From: Desulfovibrio sp. DV
GTDB lineage: Bacteria > Desulfobacterota > Desulfovibrionia > Desulfovibrionales > Desulfovibrionaceae
Assembly: GCF_001936595.1 (NCBI RefSeq)
Contig: NZ_MLBG01000001.1
Span: forward strand, 1 to 64,000
Length of the DNA: 64,000 nt
Direction of reading: 5' to 3'
The position numbers and the translations under genes are program-made. The notes beneath the pieces are model-generated. The model worked only from the letters and a program-made list of their open reading frames with translations, had not been told where the DNA came from and did not search any database. This document shows, in pieces, positions 46,216-52,886 of this stretch (positions are counted from its first letter, which is position 1; each line of letters starts with the position of its first letter).

Positions 46216-46309
46216 GGAAGCGTTTCGTCACCGGTGTGGCGCCCGGACTTCAAATCCGGTGTGTGGTCGAGAGGTCACAGGTAGGTTCGACTCCTATACG
46301 CTTCCGCCA
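46216..46309 (+). tRNA. selC: tRNA-Sec (anticodon TCA)
   Basis: 94 bases with encoded CCA. The 8-bp acceptor stem GGAAGCGT/ACGCTTCC (46216-46223, 46298-46305) has discriminator G46306. The anticodon stem CCGGA/TCCGG encloses loop CTTCAAA, giving TCA at 46250-46252. A long variable arm (GTGTGGTCGAGAGGTCACAG region) precedes a T loop GTTCGACTC. The extended acceptor and long extra arm are typical of selenocysteine tRNA, so the organism makes selenoproteins. No Sec-encoding UGA was identified in the genes of this window. Confidence 0.95.
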
Positions 46310-46440
46310 TGATTGGATATTTTCTCAGCCAGTCGTTTTGTCCCAGTTGCCTGGCCAAGCCGCAAACGGTCAGGCCCACTCTGATCCCGCGTGTTTTTTT
46401 TCACCCGTCGCGGTCCGCATCGGCGGGTTTCTGGAGTGCC

Positions 46441-46791
46441 ATGGCGTCAATCCCGCCCGATCTGGCCCAGCGGGCCAAAGTCTTCAAAGCCCTGGGGCAT
46501 CCCAGCCGCCTGCTCATGGTCGAAGCCCTGGGCCGGGGGGAGCTTTGCGTGTGCGAACTGCGTGAACTGGTCGGCTCGGATATGTCCACCATCTCCAAGC
46601 ACTTGAGCATCCTCCGGGAGGCCGGCATCGTTGCCGACGAGCGACGGGGCACCAATATTTACTATTCACTGCGCATGGGCTGTGTCACGGCCTTCCTCGG
46701 CTGCGTGGGCCGTTTCCTGGACCAGCAACTGGAAGAACAAATCCTGTATCTTGAGGATTTGCGCAAACAATCCGGCCGGCCGGCTTCCTGA
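46441..46791 (+). CDS. arsR: ArsR-family metalloid-responsive repressor
   Basis: 116 residues, winged helix-turn-helix. KALGHPSRLLMVEALGRGELCVCELRELV places Cys-Val-Cys exactly where E. coli ArsR binds arsenite; the recognition helix is MSTISKHLSILREAGIV. Two extra cysteines follow (GCVTAFLGC). Start chosen at 46441 (MASIPPDLAQ), where the conserved fold begins and a GGAG lies upstream; the longer frame begins at the tRNA 3' end. It probably represses the permease cluster at 48516-50252 and perhaps the transporter directly downstream. Confidence 0.85.
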   Translation: MASIPPDLAQRAKVFKALGHPSRLLMVEALGRGELCVCELRELVGSDMSTISKHLSILREAGIVADERRGTNIYYSLRMGCVTAFLGCVGRFLDQQLEEQILYLEDLRKQSGRPAS

Positions 46792-46921: not shown

Positions 46922-48103
46922 ATGCAAGACGGCAACAACGCATCCCAGGCCCTGTCGACGGCATCGGATCGCCTCCCCGGCGAGAAAACCCGCAACCGCT
47001 ACGACCACATGGAATGGGCCGGAGCATTCGGCGACATCGGCACGCTCATTCCCTTTGTTGTGGCCTATATCACGATCCTCGGCATTGATCCGCTGGGGCT
47101 TTTGTTCATGTTCGGCATCAGCAAGATCGCGGCCGGGCTGATCTACAAGACACCCATTCCCATCCAGCCCATGAAGGCCATCGGCGCGGCCGCCGTGGCC
47201 GGCGGCATAACGCCTGCCGCGCTTTTCGGCTCGGGCCTGACCACCGGGCTTTTCTGGCTCATCATCGGCCTGACCGGCACCATCGACCATGTGGCCAAGC
47301 TGGCCACCAAGCCGGTCGTTCGCGGCATCATGCTCGGCCTTGGCATGTCCTTTGTGGTGGAGGGAATCCACCGCATGGTGGCCTCGCCGGTGTTGGCCGG
47401 CATCGCCTTGACCGTCACCTTTGTGCTGCTGTCCAACCCCAAAATCCCGGCCATGTTCGTGCTGCTTTTAATTGGTGTCGTGGCCGCGGTTATCGGCAAT
47501 CCGGCCCTCATCAATGAACTGGCCCAGGTCAGCATCGGCTTTCGCCTGCCGGAGTTCGGCCTGCATCAGGTGCACTGGGACGACATCGTGACCGGCACGC
47601 TCCTTTTTACCCTGCCACAGATTCCCTTGACCCTGGGCAATGCGGTCGTGGCCATTGCCGCCGAGAACAACGAACTGTTCCCGGATCGGCTCGTCACCGA
47701 GCGCACCATGTGCGTGAGCCAGGGCATCATGAACCTGATTTCGCCGCTCTTTGGCGGCGTGCCCATGTGCCACGGAGCCGGCGGCATGGCCGGGCATGTG
47801 CGCTTCGGGGCGCGCACCGGCGGCTCCCTGGTCATCCTCGGAACCATCGTCATCGTCATAGCGCTGTTTTTCAGCCAGTCGGTGGCGGTCATCTTCAAAA
47901 TGTTCCCGCCGGCCATTCTCGGCGTGATCCTGTTTCTGGCCGGGGCCGAACTGGCCATCACGGTGCGCGACATCGGCAACAAGCGCGATGAATTCTACAC
48001 CATGATCGTGGTGGCCGGCTTTGCCATGTGGCATATGGGCGTGGCTTTCGTGGTCGGGGTTATTTTGGACAACGCGCTGCGGCGCAAGTGGATTCGCCTC
48101 TAG
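46922..48103 (+). CDS. MOT1-type molybdate/sulfate transporter
   Basis: 393 residues, about 11 membrane helices, no STAS domain. MEWAGAFGDIGTLIPFVVAY near residue 31, YKTPIPIQPMKAIGAAA near 75 and LFGGVPMCHGAGGMAGHVRFGARTG are the signatures of the MFS_MOT1/SulP-like family. Molybdate import is the best guess given the many molybdo- and tungsto-enzymes of these bacteria; sulfate or another oxyanion is possible. Preceded by a repressor-type operator and followed by a strong terminator. Confidence 0.85.
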   Translation: MQDGNNASQALSTASDRLPGEKTRNRYDHMEWAGAFGDIGTLIPFVVAYITILGIDPLGLLFMFGISKIAAGLIYKTPIPIQPMKAIGAAAVAGGITPAALFGSGLTTGLFWLIIGLTGTIDHVAKLATKPVVRGIMLGLGMSFVVEGIHRMVASPVLAGIALTVTFVLLSNPKIPAMFVLLLIGVVAAVIGNPALINELAQVSIGFRLPEFGLHQVHWDDIVTGTLLFTLPQIPLTLGNAVVAIAAENNELFPDRLVTERTMCVSQGIMNLISPLFGGVPMCHGAGGMAGHVRFGARTGGSLVILGTIVIVIALFFSQSVAVIFKMFPPAILGVILFLAGAELAITVRDIGNKRDEFYTMIVVAGFAMWHMGVAFVVGVILDNALRRKWIRL

Positions 48104-48160: not shown

Positions 48161-48200
48161 CCGGGCGCGGGAGCAATGCTCCCGCGCCCGGCCTTTTTTT
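48161..48200 (+). terminator. Terminator of the MOT1 transporter gene
   Basis: GGGCGCGGGAGC (48163-48174) pairs with GCTCCCGCGCCC (48178-48189), extended by two C-G pairs to 14 bp, followed by seven T (48194-48200). Confidence 0.92.
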
Positions 48201-48433: not shown

Positions 48434-48483
48434 TTGCCAAAGAAATCGATCCCGCATAGTTTCCTTTTTGACCAAATAGGAAA
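48434..48483 (+). promoter_or_regulatory. Promoter and operator of the permease cluster
   Basis: TTGCCA (48434-48439), 17 bases, TAGTTT (48457-48462). TTTCCT (48460-48465) and AGGAAA (48478-48483) form an inverted repeat over 12 bases across the start point. The right arm belongs to AAATAGGAAA, close to the AAATAGGAAT decamers of the perR promoter. Within the gap 48104-48515 only this element and the terminator are clear. Confidence 0.5.
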
Positions 48484-48515: not shown

Positions 48516-49667
48516 ATGCAAAATGATTGTCCATCAGGCCGATGCGCCTGCAGCTGCGGGCAGGAGCCTGTCGTGGGCACTGCCTTGCAGGCCGGGGAAG
48601 CGACCGCTCCCGGAACTGGGCGGAAAACGCTTGAGGCCGGCAGCTCCTGGCCGTCCCCTGGCCGTTTGGCCCTGGGCCTTGGCGGTCTGGCCGTCTGGTT
48701 TTTCGTTTATGGCTGGTTGCTTTCCGTCTCCCGGTTTCTCACCTATTCGGTTTTAGGGCTGGAACACGGCTCGCATCTGGGGAATTCGGTCGAGTTTTTC
48801 CTGTACGACACGCCCAAGGTGCTCATGCTCCTGACGCTGGTGGTCTTTGGCGTGGGCATCATCCGTTCCTTTTTTACGCCCGAGCGCACCCGGCGCATCC
48901 TGGCCGGCCGGCGCGAATCAGCCGGCAACCTCATGGCCGCGCTTTTAGGTATTGTCACGCCCTTTTGCTCCTGCTCGGCCGTGCCGCTTTTCATCGGCTT
49001 TGTCTCGGCCGGCGTGCCCCTTGGCGTCACTTTTTCGTTTCTCATTTCCGCGCCCATGGTCAATGAGATTGCCGTGGTGCTGCTCTATGGCCTGCTGGGG
49101 TGGAAGGTGGCGGCCCTTTATATGGGCATGGGGCTTCTCGTGGCCATTGTGGCCGGCTGGGTTCTGGGCCGGCTCAATCTCGAAGGCCATGTCGAGGACT
49201 GGGTGCTGGCCATCCGGGCCGGCGGCGGGGATGCCCCGGTTGCGGACATGACGGCCAATGACCGCATCAACTATGGCATTGGGGCGGTCAAAGAGATTTT
49301 GGGCCGCACCTGGAAATGGGTGATCCTGGGCATTGCCGTCGGGGCCGGCATCCACGGCTATGTGCCCGAGGGGTTCATGGCCGGCATCATGGGAGAGGCC
49401 AACTGGTGGTCCGTGCCCCTGGCCGTGGTCATCGGCATTCCCATGTATTCCAATGCAGCCGGCATCGTGCCGGTGGTGGAGGCGCTGTTGTCCAAGGGCG
49501 CGGCCCTGGGCACGGTGCTGGCCTTCATTATGGCGGTTATCGCCCTGTCGCTGCCGGAGATGATCATTCTGCGCAAGGTTCTCAAGGTGCCCTTGTTGCT
49601 GGCGTTTGCCGGCATCGTCGGTCTTGGCATCCTGCTTGTGGGGTATCTCTTCAACACAATCCTGTAA
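48516..49667 (+). CDS. ArsP/DUF318-type permease
   Basis: 383 residues. A cysteine-rich start (CPSGRCACSCG, residues 5-15) is followed by about 8-10 membrane helices with the signature GIVTPFCSCSAVPLFIGF near residue 150 and IGIPMYSNAAGIVPV in the second half. ArsP members export trivalent organoarsenicals; other DUF318 permeases have unknown cargo. The extra N-terminal Cys cluster could bind metalloid. First gene of a trio with an AhpD-like and a thioredoxin-like protein, suggesting a redox-linked detoxification unit. Confidence 0.82.
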   Translation: MQNDCPSGRCACSCGQEPVVGTALQAGEATAPGTGRKTLEAGSSWPSPGRLALGLGGLAVWFFVYGWLLSVSRFLTYSVLGLEHGSHLGNSVEFFLYDTPKVLMLLTLVVFGVGIIRSFFTPERTRRILAGRRESAGNLMAALLGIVTPFCSCSAVPLFIGFVSAGVPLGVTFSFLISAPMVNEIAVVLLYGLLGWKVAALYMGMGLLVAIVAGWVLGRLNLEGHVEDWVLAIRAGGGDAPVADMTANDRINYGIGAVKEILGRTWKWVILGIAVGAGIHGYVPEGFMAGIMGEANWWSVPLAVVIGIPMYSNAAGIVPVVEALLSKGAALGTVLAFIMAVIALSLPEMIILRKVLKVPLLLAFAGIVGLGILLVGYLFNTIL

Positions 49668-49677
49668 GGAGGCTCGT

Positions 49678-50001
49678 ATGCGATTTTTAGCCCAGTTGTT
49701 CCCGGAATTTGCGACAAAGCTCGACGAAATGGATGCGCTGTACGCCGAAAAGCGCCTCATCGACGAAAAGACTTACCAGTTCATCTGTTTTGCCGTGTCC
49801 GTAAAGGCCCGGTCCAAGCCCTGCGTCCTCAAGCACTTCAAGGGGGCGCTCGACGCCGGGGCAAGCCTGCAGGAATTGGCCTACATCCTGGCGCTGGTCA
49901 TGCGCGAGGCGGCCGGGGCCGACGACTGCTGGACCCATGACGTTCTTGGGGATGTCGCCGACATTATTGCCGGAAAAATCGACTGCGGCTGCAAGAAATA
50001 G
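49678..50001 (+). CDS. AhpD-like (carboxymuconolactone decarboxylase family) protein
   Basis: 107 residues. Typical CMD order: YQFICFAVSVKARSKPCVLKHFKGALDAGASLQELAYILALVMREAAGADDCW. The active-site region has Cys-x3-His (CVLKH) rather than the CxxC of AhpD, so one resolving Cys is missing; three more Cys occur at the end (DCW, DCGCKK). AGGAGG in front of ATG 49678, 10 bases after the permease. Probably a redox partner in the cluster. Confidence 0.75.
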   Translation: MRFLAQLFPEFATKLDEMDALYAEKRLIDEKTYQFICFAVSVKARSKPCVLKHFKGALDAGASLQELAYILALVMREAAGADDCWTHDVLGDVADIIAGKIDCGCKK

Positions 50002-50021
50002 CGGCCGGGAAGGAGCAGGGG

Positions 50022-50252
50022 ATGCTTATTCAGGTGCTCGGCACGGGCTGCGCCAAGTGCAACGAGTTGGAAAAGCTGGTCAAGGAAGTTGTGGCCGAAA
50101 AGGGCGTCAGCGCAACGGTCGAGAAGGTGGCGGATTTGCAGCAGATCGCCATGCTGGGCGTTTTCACCACGCCGGCCCTGGTCATTGACGGGGTCATCAA
50201 GGCCGTGGGCGGCATTCCGTCCCGAAAGGATCTGGCGGCCTGGATCGGTTGA
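50022..50252 (+). CDS. Small thioredoxin-fold redox-active disulfide protein (TM0996 type)
   Basis: 76 residues. Beta-alpha-beta start MLIQVLGTGCAKCNELEK with the CAKC active site, cis-Pro region FTTPALVIDG and a short C-terminal helix. Such proteins often accompany DUF318/ArsP permeases and ArsR regulators. Likely cytoplasmic reductant for the cargo or for the AhpD-like neighbour. AAGGAG precedes ATG 50022. Confidence 0.85.
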   Translation: MLIQVLGTGCAKCNELEKLVKEVVAEKGVSATVEKVADLQQIAMLGVFTTPALVIDGVIKAVGGIPSRKDLAAWIG

Positions 50253-52400: not shown

Positions 52401-52886
52401 ATGGGCAATGCCCCCGGGACAGGCGTCACGTTGCTGGAAAAACGCGGCATCGAGGCCGCCATGCTGGCCGACGTCTATGCCGTCCTGACCGAGCGCCTGG
52501 GCCGCGACGCCGCCCTGGCCATTATCGAGGAGACCGTGGCCCGGTCCGCCTTTGCTGCCGGCCAGGCCTTTGCCGCCACCGCCCCGGACGGGCCGACCCT
52601 GGCCCATTTCGCCACGGTGGCCAACCTGTGGCAGCGGGGCGAGGCGCTTTGTATCGAAAACGTGCGCCAGACTTCCGAGCGCCTGTCCTTTGACGTGACC
52701 CGCTGCCGCTACGCCGAGAGCTACCGGGCCATGGGCCTGCCCGAGGAACTCGTCATGCGCATATCCTGCCTGCGCGACGGGGCCTTTGCCGCCGGCTACA
52801 GTCCCGCCCTGGCGTTTTCCCGCCCGGCCACCATTGCCTCGGGCGCATCCTCCTGTCCTTTCACCTTCACCTGGAACGACGCATGA
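52401..52886 (+). CDS. L-2-amino-thiazoline-4-carboxylate hydrolase family protein
   Basis: 161 residues. The C-terminal half RCRYAESYRAMGLPEELVMRIS...GASSCPFTFTW has the Cys/Arg/Gly pattern of the ATC hydrolase family (PF14196). The founding enzyme opens a thiazoline ring on the way to cysteine; most genomic members have no known substrate. Its stop overlaps the asnS start by four bases (ATGA), so the two are translationally coupled. The ATG at 52401 lacks an obvious ribosome site. Confidence 0.7.
   Translation: MGNAPGTGVTLLEKRGIEAAMLADVYAVLTERLGRDAALAIIEETVARSAFAAGQAFAATAPDGPTLAHFATVANLWQRGEALCIENVRQTSERLSFDVTRCRYAESYRAMGLPEELVMRISCLRDGAFAAGYSPALAFSRPATIASGASSCPFTFTWNDA

Follow-up and report, generated by a model that had tools for sequence, protein, structure and literature searches.

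The window analysed here is a stretch of 64,000 nucleotides from Desulfovibrio sp. DV (contig NZ_MLBG01000001.1, positions 1 to 64,000). At 48516-50252 it encodes, on the + strand, a trio of an ArsP_1-type permease, a small protein of the CMD/AhpD fold and a thioredoxin. Judged by its sequence, the middle protein appears to be a widely conserved, ars-associated variant of the AhpD fold that is seemingly unnamed so far. We propose, with a probability of about one half, that the trio confers metalloid resistance in association with ArsR and most likely serves against trivalent (methyl)arsenicals, and that in its middle protein a two-cysteine AhpD/CMD fold has been turned into a single-thiol handler of arsenicals. 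The observed basis of this proposal is the arrangement of the genes, the conserved residues of the middle protein, the loss of the AhpD glutamate and resolving cysteine, and the enrichment of the gene neighbourhood.

The three open reading frames (ORFs) of the trio are spaced by 10 and 20 bases in the ORF list of the window, which confirms the permease, CMD protein and thioredoxin described at this place in the initial annotation. The permease (48516-49667, +, 383 amino acids) matches PF03773 (ArsP_1) with 248.8 bits, where the cut-off is 32.3. It is followed by the CMD/AhpD-fold protein with a single nucleophile (49678-50001, +, 107 amino acids), assigned by PF02627 (CMD; 26.4 bits, gathering score 23), by the family alignment and by a fold match. 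The thioredoxin (50022-50252, +, 76 amino acids) belongs to the Thioredoxin_3 domain family (Trx_3; PF13192, 89.9 bits against 24.8) and to the 'MTH895/ArsE family' of TIGR00412 (94.9 against 62 bits), and its CxxC is the CAKC motif that the annotation had already reported. Near-identical loci (L009-L015) carry the name Solidesulfovibrio and place the host genome close to that genus; L009 and L011 are duplicates.

The active site of the middle protein departs from that of AhpD. Our family alignment has 100 rows: 99 distinct sequences out of 123 family sequences (125 were found) and the window protein, which repeats one of them. Instead of the CxxCxxxH of AhpD, all 100 rows read SxxCxxxH; in the window protein this segment includes C49-V-L-K-H53 (49822-49836, +, located by the family alignment and the alignment to 7y4r), and Ser46 occupies the position of the AhpD resolving cysteine. 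The AhpD glutamate has a role in proton relay; at its position, 97 rows have glutamine (Gln34), two glutamate and one histidine. We rejected a canonical AhpD identity because these two catalytic positions, the resolving cysteine and the relay glutamate, both fail, and the window protein also stays below the cut-off of the AhpD core domain model TIGR00778 (22.9 against 27.8 bits). S46, C49, H53, R76, E77, D82, D83 and H87 are invariant in the 100 rows, while C37 and C84 are each present in 99, with L162 lacking C37 and L141 lacking C84. The C-terminal pair C103-G-C105 (49984-49992, +) is also well kept, with C105 in 99 rows and C103 in 94. CC replaces CxC in L118-L120 and L122, four relatives that belong to two further families within the host phylum. 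The single active-site cysteine with CxxxH was correctly recognized in the initial annotation, but its count of four cysteines overlooked the conserved C37: the protein has five (C37, C49, C84, C103 and C105).

Both sequence and structure comparisons point to the CMD fold. A sequence profile matched 7y4r (RclX, E 1.1e-6), in an alignment where RCDGC of that protein stands opposite RSKPC of the window protein and Gln takes the place of the Glu in TREL. Foldseek, run with a structure model, again gave 7y4r as the best match (E 6e-4, template-modelling (TM) score 0.52), followed by 3bey (O27018, TM ~0.5) and 1vke; the model is of moderate quality, with a predicted local distance difference test score (pLDDT) of 78.1 that falls below 50 at residues 81-84. 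The 42 aligned members give weak matches to one small set of AhpD-type NCBIfam models, and the window protein reaches none of their curated cut-offs. Among these models are those of selenocysteine (Sec)-containing AhpD proteins (22.0 against 510 and 25 against 110 bits), and we rejected selenoprotein status for the window protein, as its gene has no in-frame TGA. CMD matches in the host's family (149 genomes) split into two groups, 13 at 205 bits or more and 12 at 37.5 bits or less, and we therefore treat the high-scoring group as a discrete family there. Members of the window family are ~70-80% identical across sulphate reducers, clostridia, Chloroflexota and methanogens.

We surveyed the neighbourhoods of CMD genes in other genomes. 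A search of 84,980 species genomes for relatives gave 179 confirmed ones, and the best 80 of these were used. A sampled set of 27 loci from 25 genomes was added to lessen the bias of best matches. Matches were present in nine of 395 sampled genomes of the host phylum, the host among them, and in 14 of 398 from the Bacillota, the phylum of Ca. Formimonas, again with that genome among them (G530 corresponds to L017 and was counted once). From the host family, four strong matches outside the host genus were added and eight other members of the genus were left out. Removing 10 duplicates from 107 loci left 97 non-redundant ones, in which neighbours were recorded within 6.5 kb. Neighbour genes were classed by blast cluster, with Pfam checks on representatives rather than a scan of every gene, and since flanks end at contig ends in many loci, the counts are lower bounds.

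Trx_3 genes were found near the CMD gene in 65 of the 97 loci, ArsR-type genes in 63, ArsP-type permeases in 60, ArsC in 14, ACR3 in 11 and ArsM in eight. Two generic methyltransferases in the ArsM blast cluster (L077 and L084) are excluded from these counts. At least one ars-type gene was present at 79 loci (73 if ArsR-type genes are not counted), and at 22 of the 27 sampled loci. The initial annotation named a lack of co-occurrence of the AhpD-like gene with the permease elsewhere as refuting its reading, and this survey does not refute it: beyond the 60 loci with a permease in range, all three genes lie on one strand within 3 kb in 39 of 97, and the ArsR-type, ACR3, ArsC and ArsM neighbours back the metalloid link. 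The commonest gene order is permease-Trx-CMD (21 loci), while the order of the window, permease-CMD-Trx, occurs in seven. A CxxC lies near the called start at 56 of the 65 Trx_3 loci.

The CMD protein is more tightly tied to the thioredoxin than to the permease. In 50 of 94 loci the gene right next to CMD on the same strand encodes Trx_3, and at L010 and L015 the CMD-Trx pair persists with no space before it for a permease. A MOT1-type gene, then CMD and Trx, without a permease between, is the arrangement in L010, L015, L090 and L098, where the CMD-Trx pair outlives the permease. At L157 (G620:C18:352209-368328), a partial, stop-bearing CMD remnant remains near ArsR, permease and Trx_3 genes.

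A chance association was rejected on two grounds, Trx_3 copy number and a control with canonical CMD genes. The copy number rests on 20 of the 26 genomes with a CMD gene (G111, G276, G327, G620, G820 and G927 were left out); each of the 20 holds 0-3 copies of Trx_3, with 29 matches in ~73 Mb altogether. A Trx_3 gene lies within 6.5 kb of the CMD gene in 11 of these 20 genomes, against ~0.5% expected for a random site by our own arithmetic. Within the host's family, marker genes were found at most 1.5 kb from 11 of 13 window-family members and from none of 12 canonical CMD genes (p = 2e-5, a value that overstates independence because nine of the 13 members belong to one genus).

The permease has the motifs of an ArsP protein. 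Its TPFCSCSA contains the C(S/T)C that, together with PF03773, marks ArsP proteins, and passages of PMC4435449 give TPF before C(S/T)C as the signature of ArsP cluster 2. The Cys-rich head that the initial annotation pointed out is indeed present (CPSGRCACSC, C5 to C14, 48528-48557, +, read from the sequence), the head sequence being MQNDCPSGRCACSCG. Its CxC is conserved in 11 of 11 aligned rows (the window included; L012 and L099 are the same there) while the remaining head varies. Near the CMD family, 28 of 65 permease ORFs have LAV-CSC, 18 have TPF-C(S/A)C and 19 have neither, so that the set includes both of the ArsP sequence classes known from the literature; C(S/A)C itself is found in 46 of the 65.

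We suggest the following course of events. When arsenic is present, ArsR would leave a palindrome that lies before the permease gene. C49, activated by H53, may bind a (methyl)arsenical through a thiol adduct or attack a pentavalent one, perhaps with C37 and C84 as the further members of a thiolate site. The C-terminal CxC/CC tail, together with the CxxC of the adjacent Trx_3, could then resolve the adduct or disulphide, a role that a lipoamide-dehydrogenase/lipoyl set may take in a few Bacillota. The trivalent product would finally reach the ArsP-type permease at its CxC head and be exported. A putative reduction of cargo or adduct before export, as first suggested for this trio, is plausible. 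That first interpretation is supported as to the permease and the metalloid link, but it needs revision in that the thioredoxin is a tighter partner than the permease, methanogen copies mostly lack these genes and the active site is unlike that of AhpD.

Several observations weigh against the proposed resistance unit. Eighteen of the 97 loci lack any ars-type neighbour. Permease-Trx pairs without a CMD gene are common and include two paralogous pairs elsewhere in the host genome, on contigs C4 and C8: in the surroundings of the C4 pair no CMD gene lies between or adjoining the two genes, and the same spacing of both matches in the C8 pair leaves no room for one between them. Among 973 plasmid records with a permease relative, none has a CMD match of at least 60% identity. 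The window permease stays below the cut-offs of the curated NCBIfam equivalogs (SaoE, 125.6 against 325 bits), the moderate model leaves the closeness of C37, C49 and C84 unproven, and L162 does without C37. The weightiest objection comes from methanogens. The CMD family occurs, in part as fragments, in 61 of 237 genomes of the methanogen class of the Methanosarcinaceae locus L076, which we take to be Methanosarcinia. Neighbourhoods from 20 of the 61 genomes have an ars-type gene within 6.5 kb in two cases only, both ACR3 (a generic methyltransferase at L216 is not counted), while a B12-binding corrinoid protein is encoded near eight of the 20 copies and a DUF6951 protein likewise near eight. 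A purely ars-bound family was rejected by this methanogen survey.

The near invariance of C37, C49, C84 and the CxC/CC tail, and the CxC head on the permease, would also suit a metallochaperone without redox chemistry. Much as ArsD hands metalloid to ArsA, three to five cysteines would bind trivalent arsenic (As(III)) or its methylated form (MAs(III)) and deliver it to the permease, with Trx_3 only keeping the thiols reduced. We consider this unlikely, because the C49-H53 pair kept on an AhpD fold suggests chemistry, L162 and L141 dispense with C37 and C84, respectively, and the closeness of the cysteines in space is unproven by the moderate model.

An oxidative-stress thiol peroxidase or disulphide reductase, that is, an AhpD-type antioxidant recycled by Trx_3, is improbable. 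It would explain the ars neighbours as a reflection of oxidative damage caused by arsenic, and it agrees with the AhpD/CMD fold and the retained C49 and H53. AhpD works in partnership with lipoamide dehydrogenase (Lpd), and the adjacent thioredoxin or lipoyl/Lpd set resembles such partners. Against it stand the serine at the resolving-cysteine position in 100 of 100 rows, the glutamine at the relay position in 97, and the TIGR00778 score of 22.9 below 27.8. Moreover, none of the 12 canonical CMD genes of the host's family has such neighbours, and the named hosts of the window family are, as we take from their names, largely anaerobes.

The methanogen copies bear on a third alternative. In a tree of 107 columns with a midpoint root (L033, L086, L142, L151 and L157 left out), the methanogen-class sequences form one group that also takes in the long-branched bacterial L168 and is nested within bacterial sequences, most of them ars-linked. 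Because of this nesting the methanogen copies look derived, although the tree is suggestive only. At L162 (G820:C28:11474-27791), the CMD gene lies between two URO-D-type methyltransferase genes, together with MtmB and two corrinoid-protein genes (the second URO-D and the corrinoid genes were assigned by blast cluster). One of the URO-D proteins carries a fused Thioredoxin_3-like domain (score 24.1, cut-off 24.8), and corrinoid-protein genes of the same cluster occur in L026, L035 and L036. A role in one-carbon or methyl-thiol metabolism (corrinoid methyltransfer), with the ars-linked copies as one use, could draw on these loci and on the corrinoid-protein genes near eight of 20 methanogen copies, but is the least probable of the alternatives. 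Against it, ars-type genes occur at 79 of 97 loci, and the methanogen copies look derived, if only by a midpoint root and few columns. All these contexts fit methyl-metalloid chemistry too. Methyl-metalloid chemistry would unite the ars and corrinoid contexts; another role might do so as well.

Five Bacillota loci (L017, L020, L024, L038 and L080) have a lipoamide-dehydrogenase signature, for which one representative was checked by Pfam, and no Trx_3. The absence of Trx_3 from all five, compared with its presence in 65 of the 97 loci overall, has a p of ~0.003 by our own arithmetic, uncorrected for kinship; L024 and L038 are close in the tree, as are L017 and L020, so the five loci are partly kin. 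Lipoate ligase genes are found in L017 and L160, and several loci of this kind contain DGC-domain genes and a ferredoxin. These data are no more than a hint that a lipoyl/lipoamide-dehydrogenase set is an alternative partner to Trx_3. At L160 (G740:C1:161232-177552), two small lipoyl-domain proteins, a lipoate ligase and DGC-domain genes are encoded near the CMD gene, beside an ArsR, which makes a lipoyl-based thiol system possible there.

Upstream of the trio, an ArsR/SmtB-type repressor gene lies at 46411-46791 (+; PF01022, 50.0 bits; NF033788, 90.5 against a cut-off of 55). The longest ORF is 46309-46791, with the ATG at 46411 as the probable start. The product carries ELCVCEL, within GELCVCEL, which is the CxC metalloid motif looked for in an ars operon neighbourhood, and near orthologues are present in seven of the eight loci L009-L016 (L009 and L011 being the duplicates). 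The initial annotation had placed an ArsR with a CVC site nearby, and this is correct, but the gene is not directly joined to the trio. Between them are a MOT1-type membrane protein gene (molybdate/sulphate transporter family; 46922-48103, +, PF16983, 174.6 bits) and, after it, a terminator-like stem-loop with a T run (48161-48191, +) whose 14-pair stem has 13 G-C pairs and is followed by CCTTTTTTT. The scanned part holds ten terminator-like sites, compared with an expectation of 6.3 from shuffles, and this one has the most pairs. Given this site, a single transcript for arsR, the MOT1-type gene and the trio is less likely. In L009-L015, too, a MOT1-type gene separates arsR from the CMD gene, and one stands beside the CMD gene in L090 and L098, two loci that are possibly from the same species as the named ones (L090 maybe from that of L010). 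The transporter possibly has an oxyanion role in the same response.

Before the permease gene is an operator-like inverted repeat, TTTCCTTTTTG-AC-CAAATAGGAAA (48460-48483, +), which has 11-nucleotide arms with 91% complementarity and a 2-nucleotide spacer and ends 32 bases 5' of the start codon. We take this 11-2-11 form to resemble the operators of ArsR/SmtB proteins. Its core TTTTGACCAAA is kept in nine of 11 aligned upstream regions (the window and one identical pair included), and TTTTTGACCAAATA has one exact match in the host genome and one more with 1 mismatch. An ArsR may well control the trio through this putative operator, but arsR itself lies apart from the trio, beyond the terminator-like site and the MOT1-type gene.

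Directly upstream of arsR is a tRNA-Sec gene (46216-46309). We dropped a link between this gene and the trio, as tRNA-Sec lies near the set in L010, L012 and L013 and was not found in L009, L014, L015 and L016. Downstream of the trio, 52401-52886 encodes a PF14196 L-2-amino-thiazoline-4-carboxylic acid hydrolase-like protein. A paralogous set without CMD (L007:5312-9042) combines ArsR, a DGC-domain protein and a permease with Trx_3, another thioredoxin (CIPC) and a DsbD/CcdA-like protein. The host genome also has an ArsM-like gene on contig C8 (53% identical). On host contig C34, L172:1129-3510 (- strand) contains a 793-residue ORF in which a radical-SAM-like part, recognized by eye, is seemingly joined to an ArsM-like methyltransferase part, which shares 43% identity with an ArsM over its residues 63-230.

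Little is understood of how anaerobes survive methylarsenite, since ArsH and ArsI, the detoxifying enzymes known so far, need oxygen. For ArsH this need is stated in passages of PMC9213503, and according to an excerpt of PMC11653729 some paddy-soil anaerobes make methylarsenite, a proposed weapon against neighbours. The 107-residue CMD protein makes a good candidate for a missing step, and one that can readily be put to the test. More broadly, and tentatively, the family may be an ars family of anaerobes, an AhpD-fold single-thiol carrier or reductase of (methyl)arsenicals that would be recharged by a dedicated ArsE-type thioredoxin or, in some Bacillota, a lipoyl/lipoamide-dehydrogenase set, load trivalent (methyl)arsenicals onto permeases of both ArsP classes, and work where the oxygen-dependent ArsH and ArsI cannot. 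We found no description of this CMD protein in ars clusters in the openly licensed literature (titles, abstract starts and passages).

Among known systems, the permease compares best with the ArsP permeases, with which it shares the family, the cluster 2 TPF-C(S/T)C and an ArsR in the neighbourhood. The ArsP of C. jejuni is known for efflux of MAs(III) and roxarsone. Its export of MAs(III) is described in excerpts of PMC6205960. The N-terminal CxC head sets the window permease apart.

The thioredoxin recalls ArsEFG, reportedly described from Shewanella putrefaciens 200 by Chen, Zhang and Rosen in 2019; the likeness is one of name, through the NCBIfam title 'MTH895/ArsE' of TIGR00412. In that system ArsG is an efflux transporter while ArsE and ArsF confer organoarsenical resistance, as portions of PMC9144182 report. 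If ArsF were a member of this CMD family, the trio would be a known system, which is the main risk to its novelty. The ars operons of methylating anaerobes contain arsP and a thioredoxin-family gene according to passages of PMC12124457, and a word search of its main text gave no mention of CMD or AhpD. In two of the three plasmid regions viewed, on Comamonas and NT-25 plasmids, a permease is followed by a small thioredoxin beside ars genes, as in the trio, but rhodanese and OsmC genes follow instead of a CMD gene.

An AhpD-type domain is likewise tied to (methyl)arsenic or methyltransferase proteins in the ArsM-AhpD fusion selenoprotein (NF041537), the GSU3128 family and MduS. Passages of PMC13188914 list AhpD-type selenoproteins with CxxU, one of them fused to ArsM. 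By motif, their Sec would take the place of C49. The models of NF041537, the GSU3128 family and MduS match 41 or 42 of 42 CMD members weakly, the ArsM-AhpD fusion model 41. In contrast to these CxxU proteins as described there, members of the window family are free-standing and have SxxC, and the window protein is far below the cut-offs of these models.

With the AhpD/CMD family itself (PF02627, TIGR00778), the middle protein shares the fold, the CMD core, the Cys-His pair and adjacent genes for thiol partners. It differs in Ser46, in a position 34 that is mostly Gln, in the extra C37, C84 and H87, and in the CxC/CC tail. The change of an AhpD site from a cysteine pair to a single nucleophile with extra thiols offers a useful case of how thiol enzymes may become metalloid handlers.

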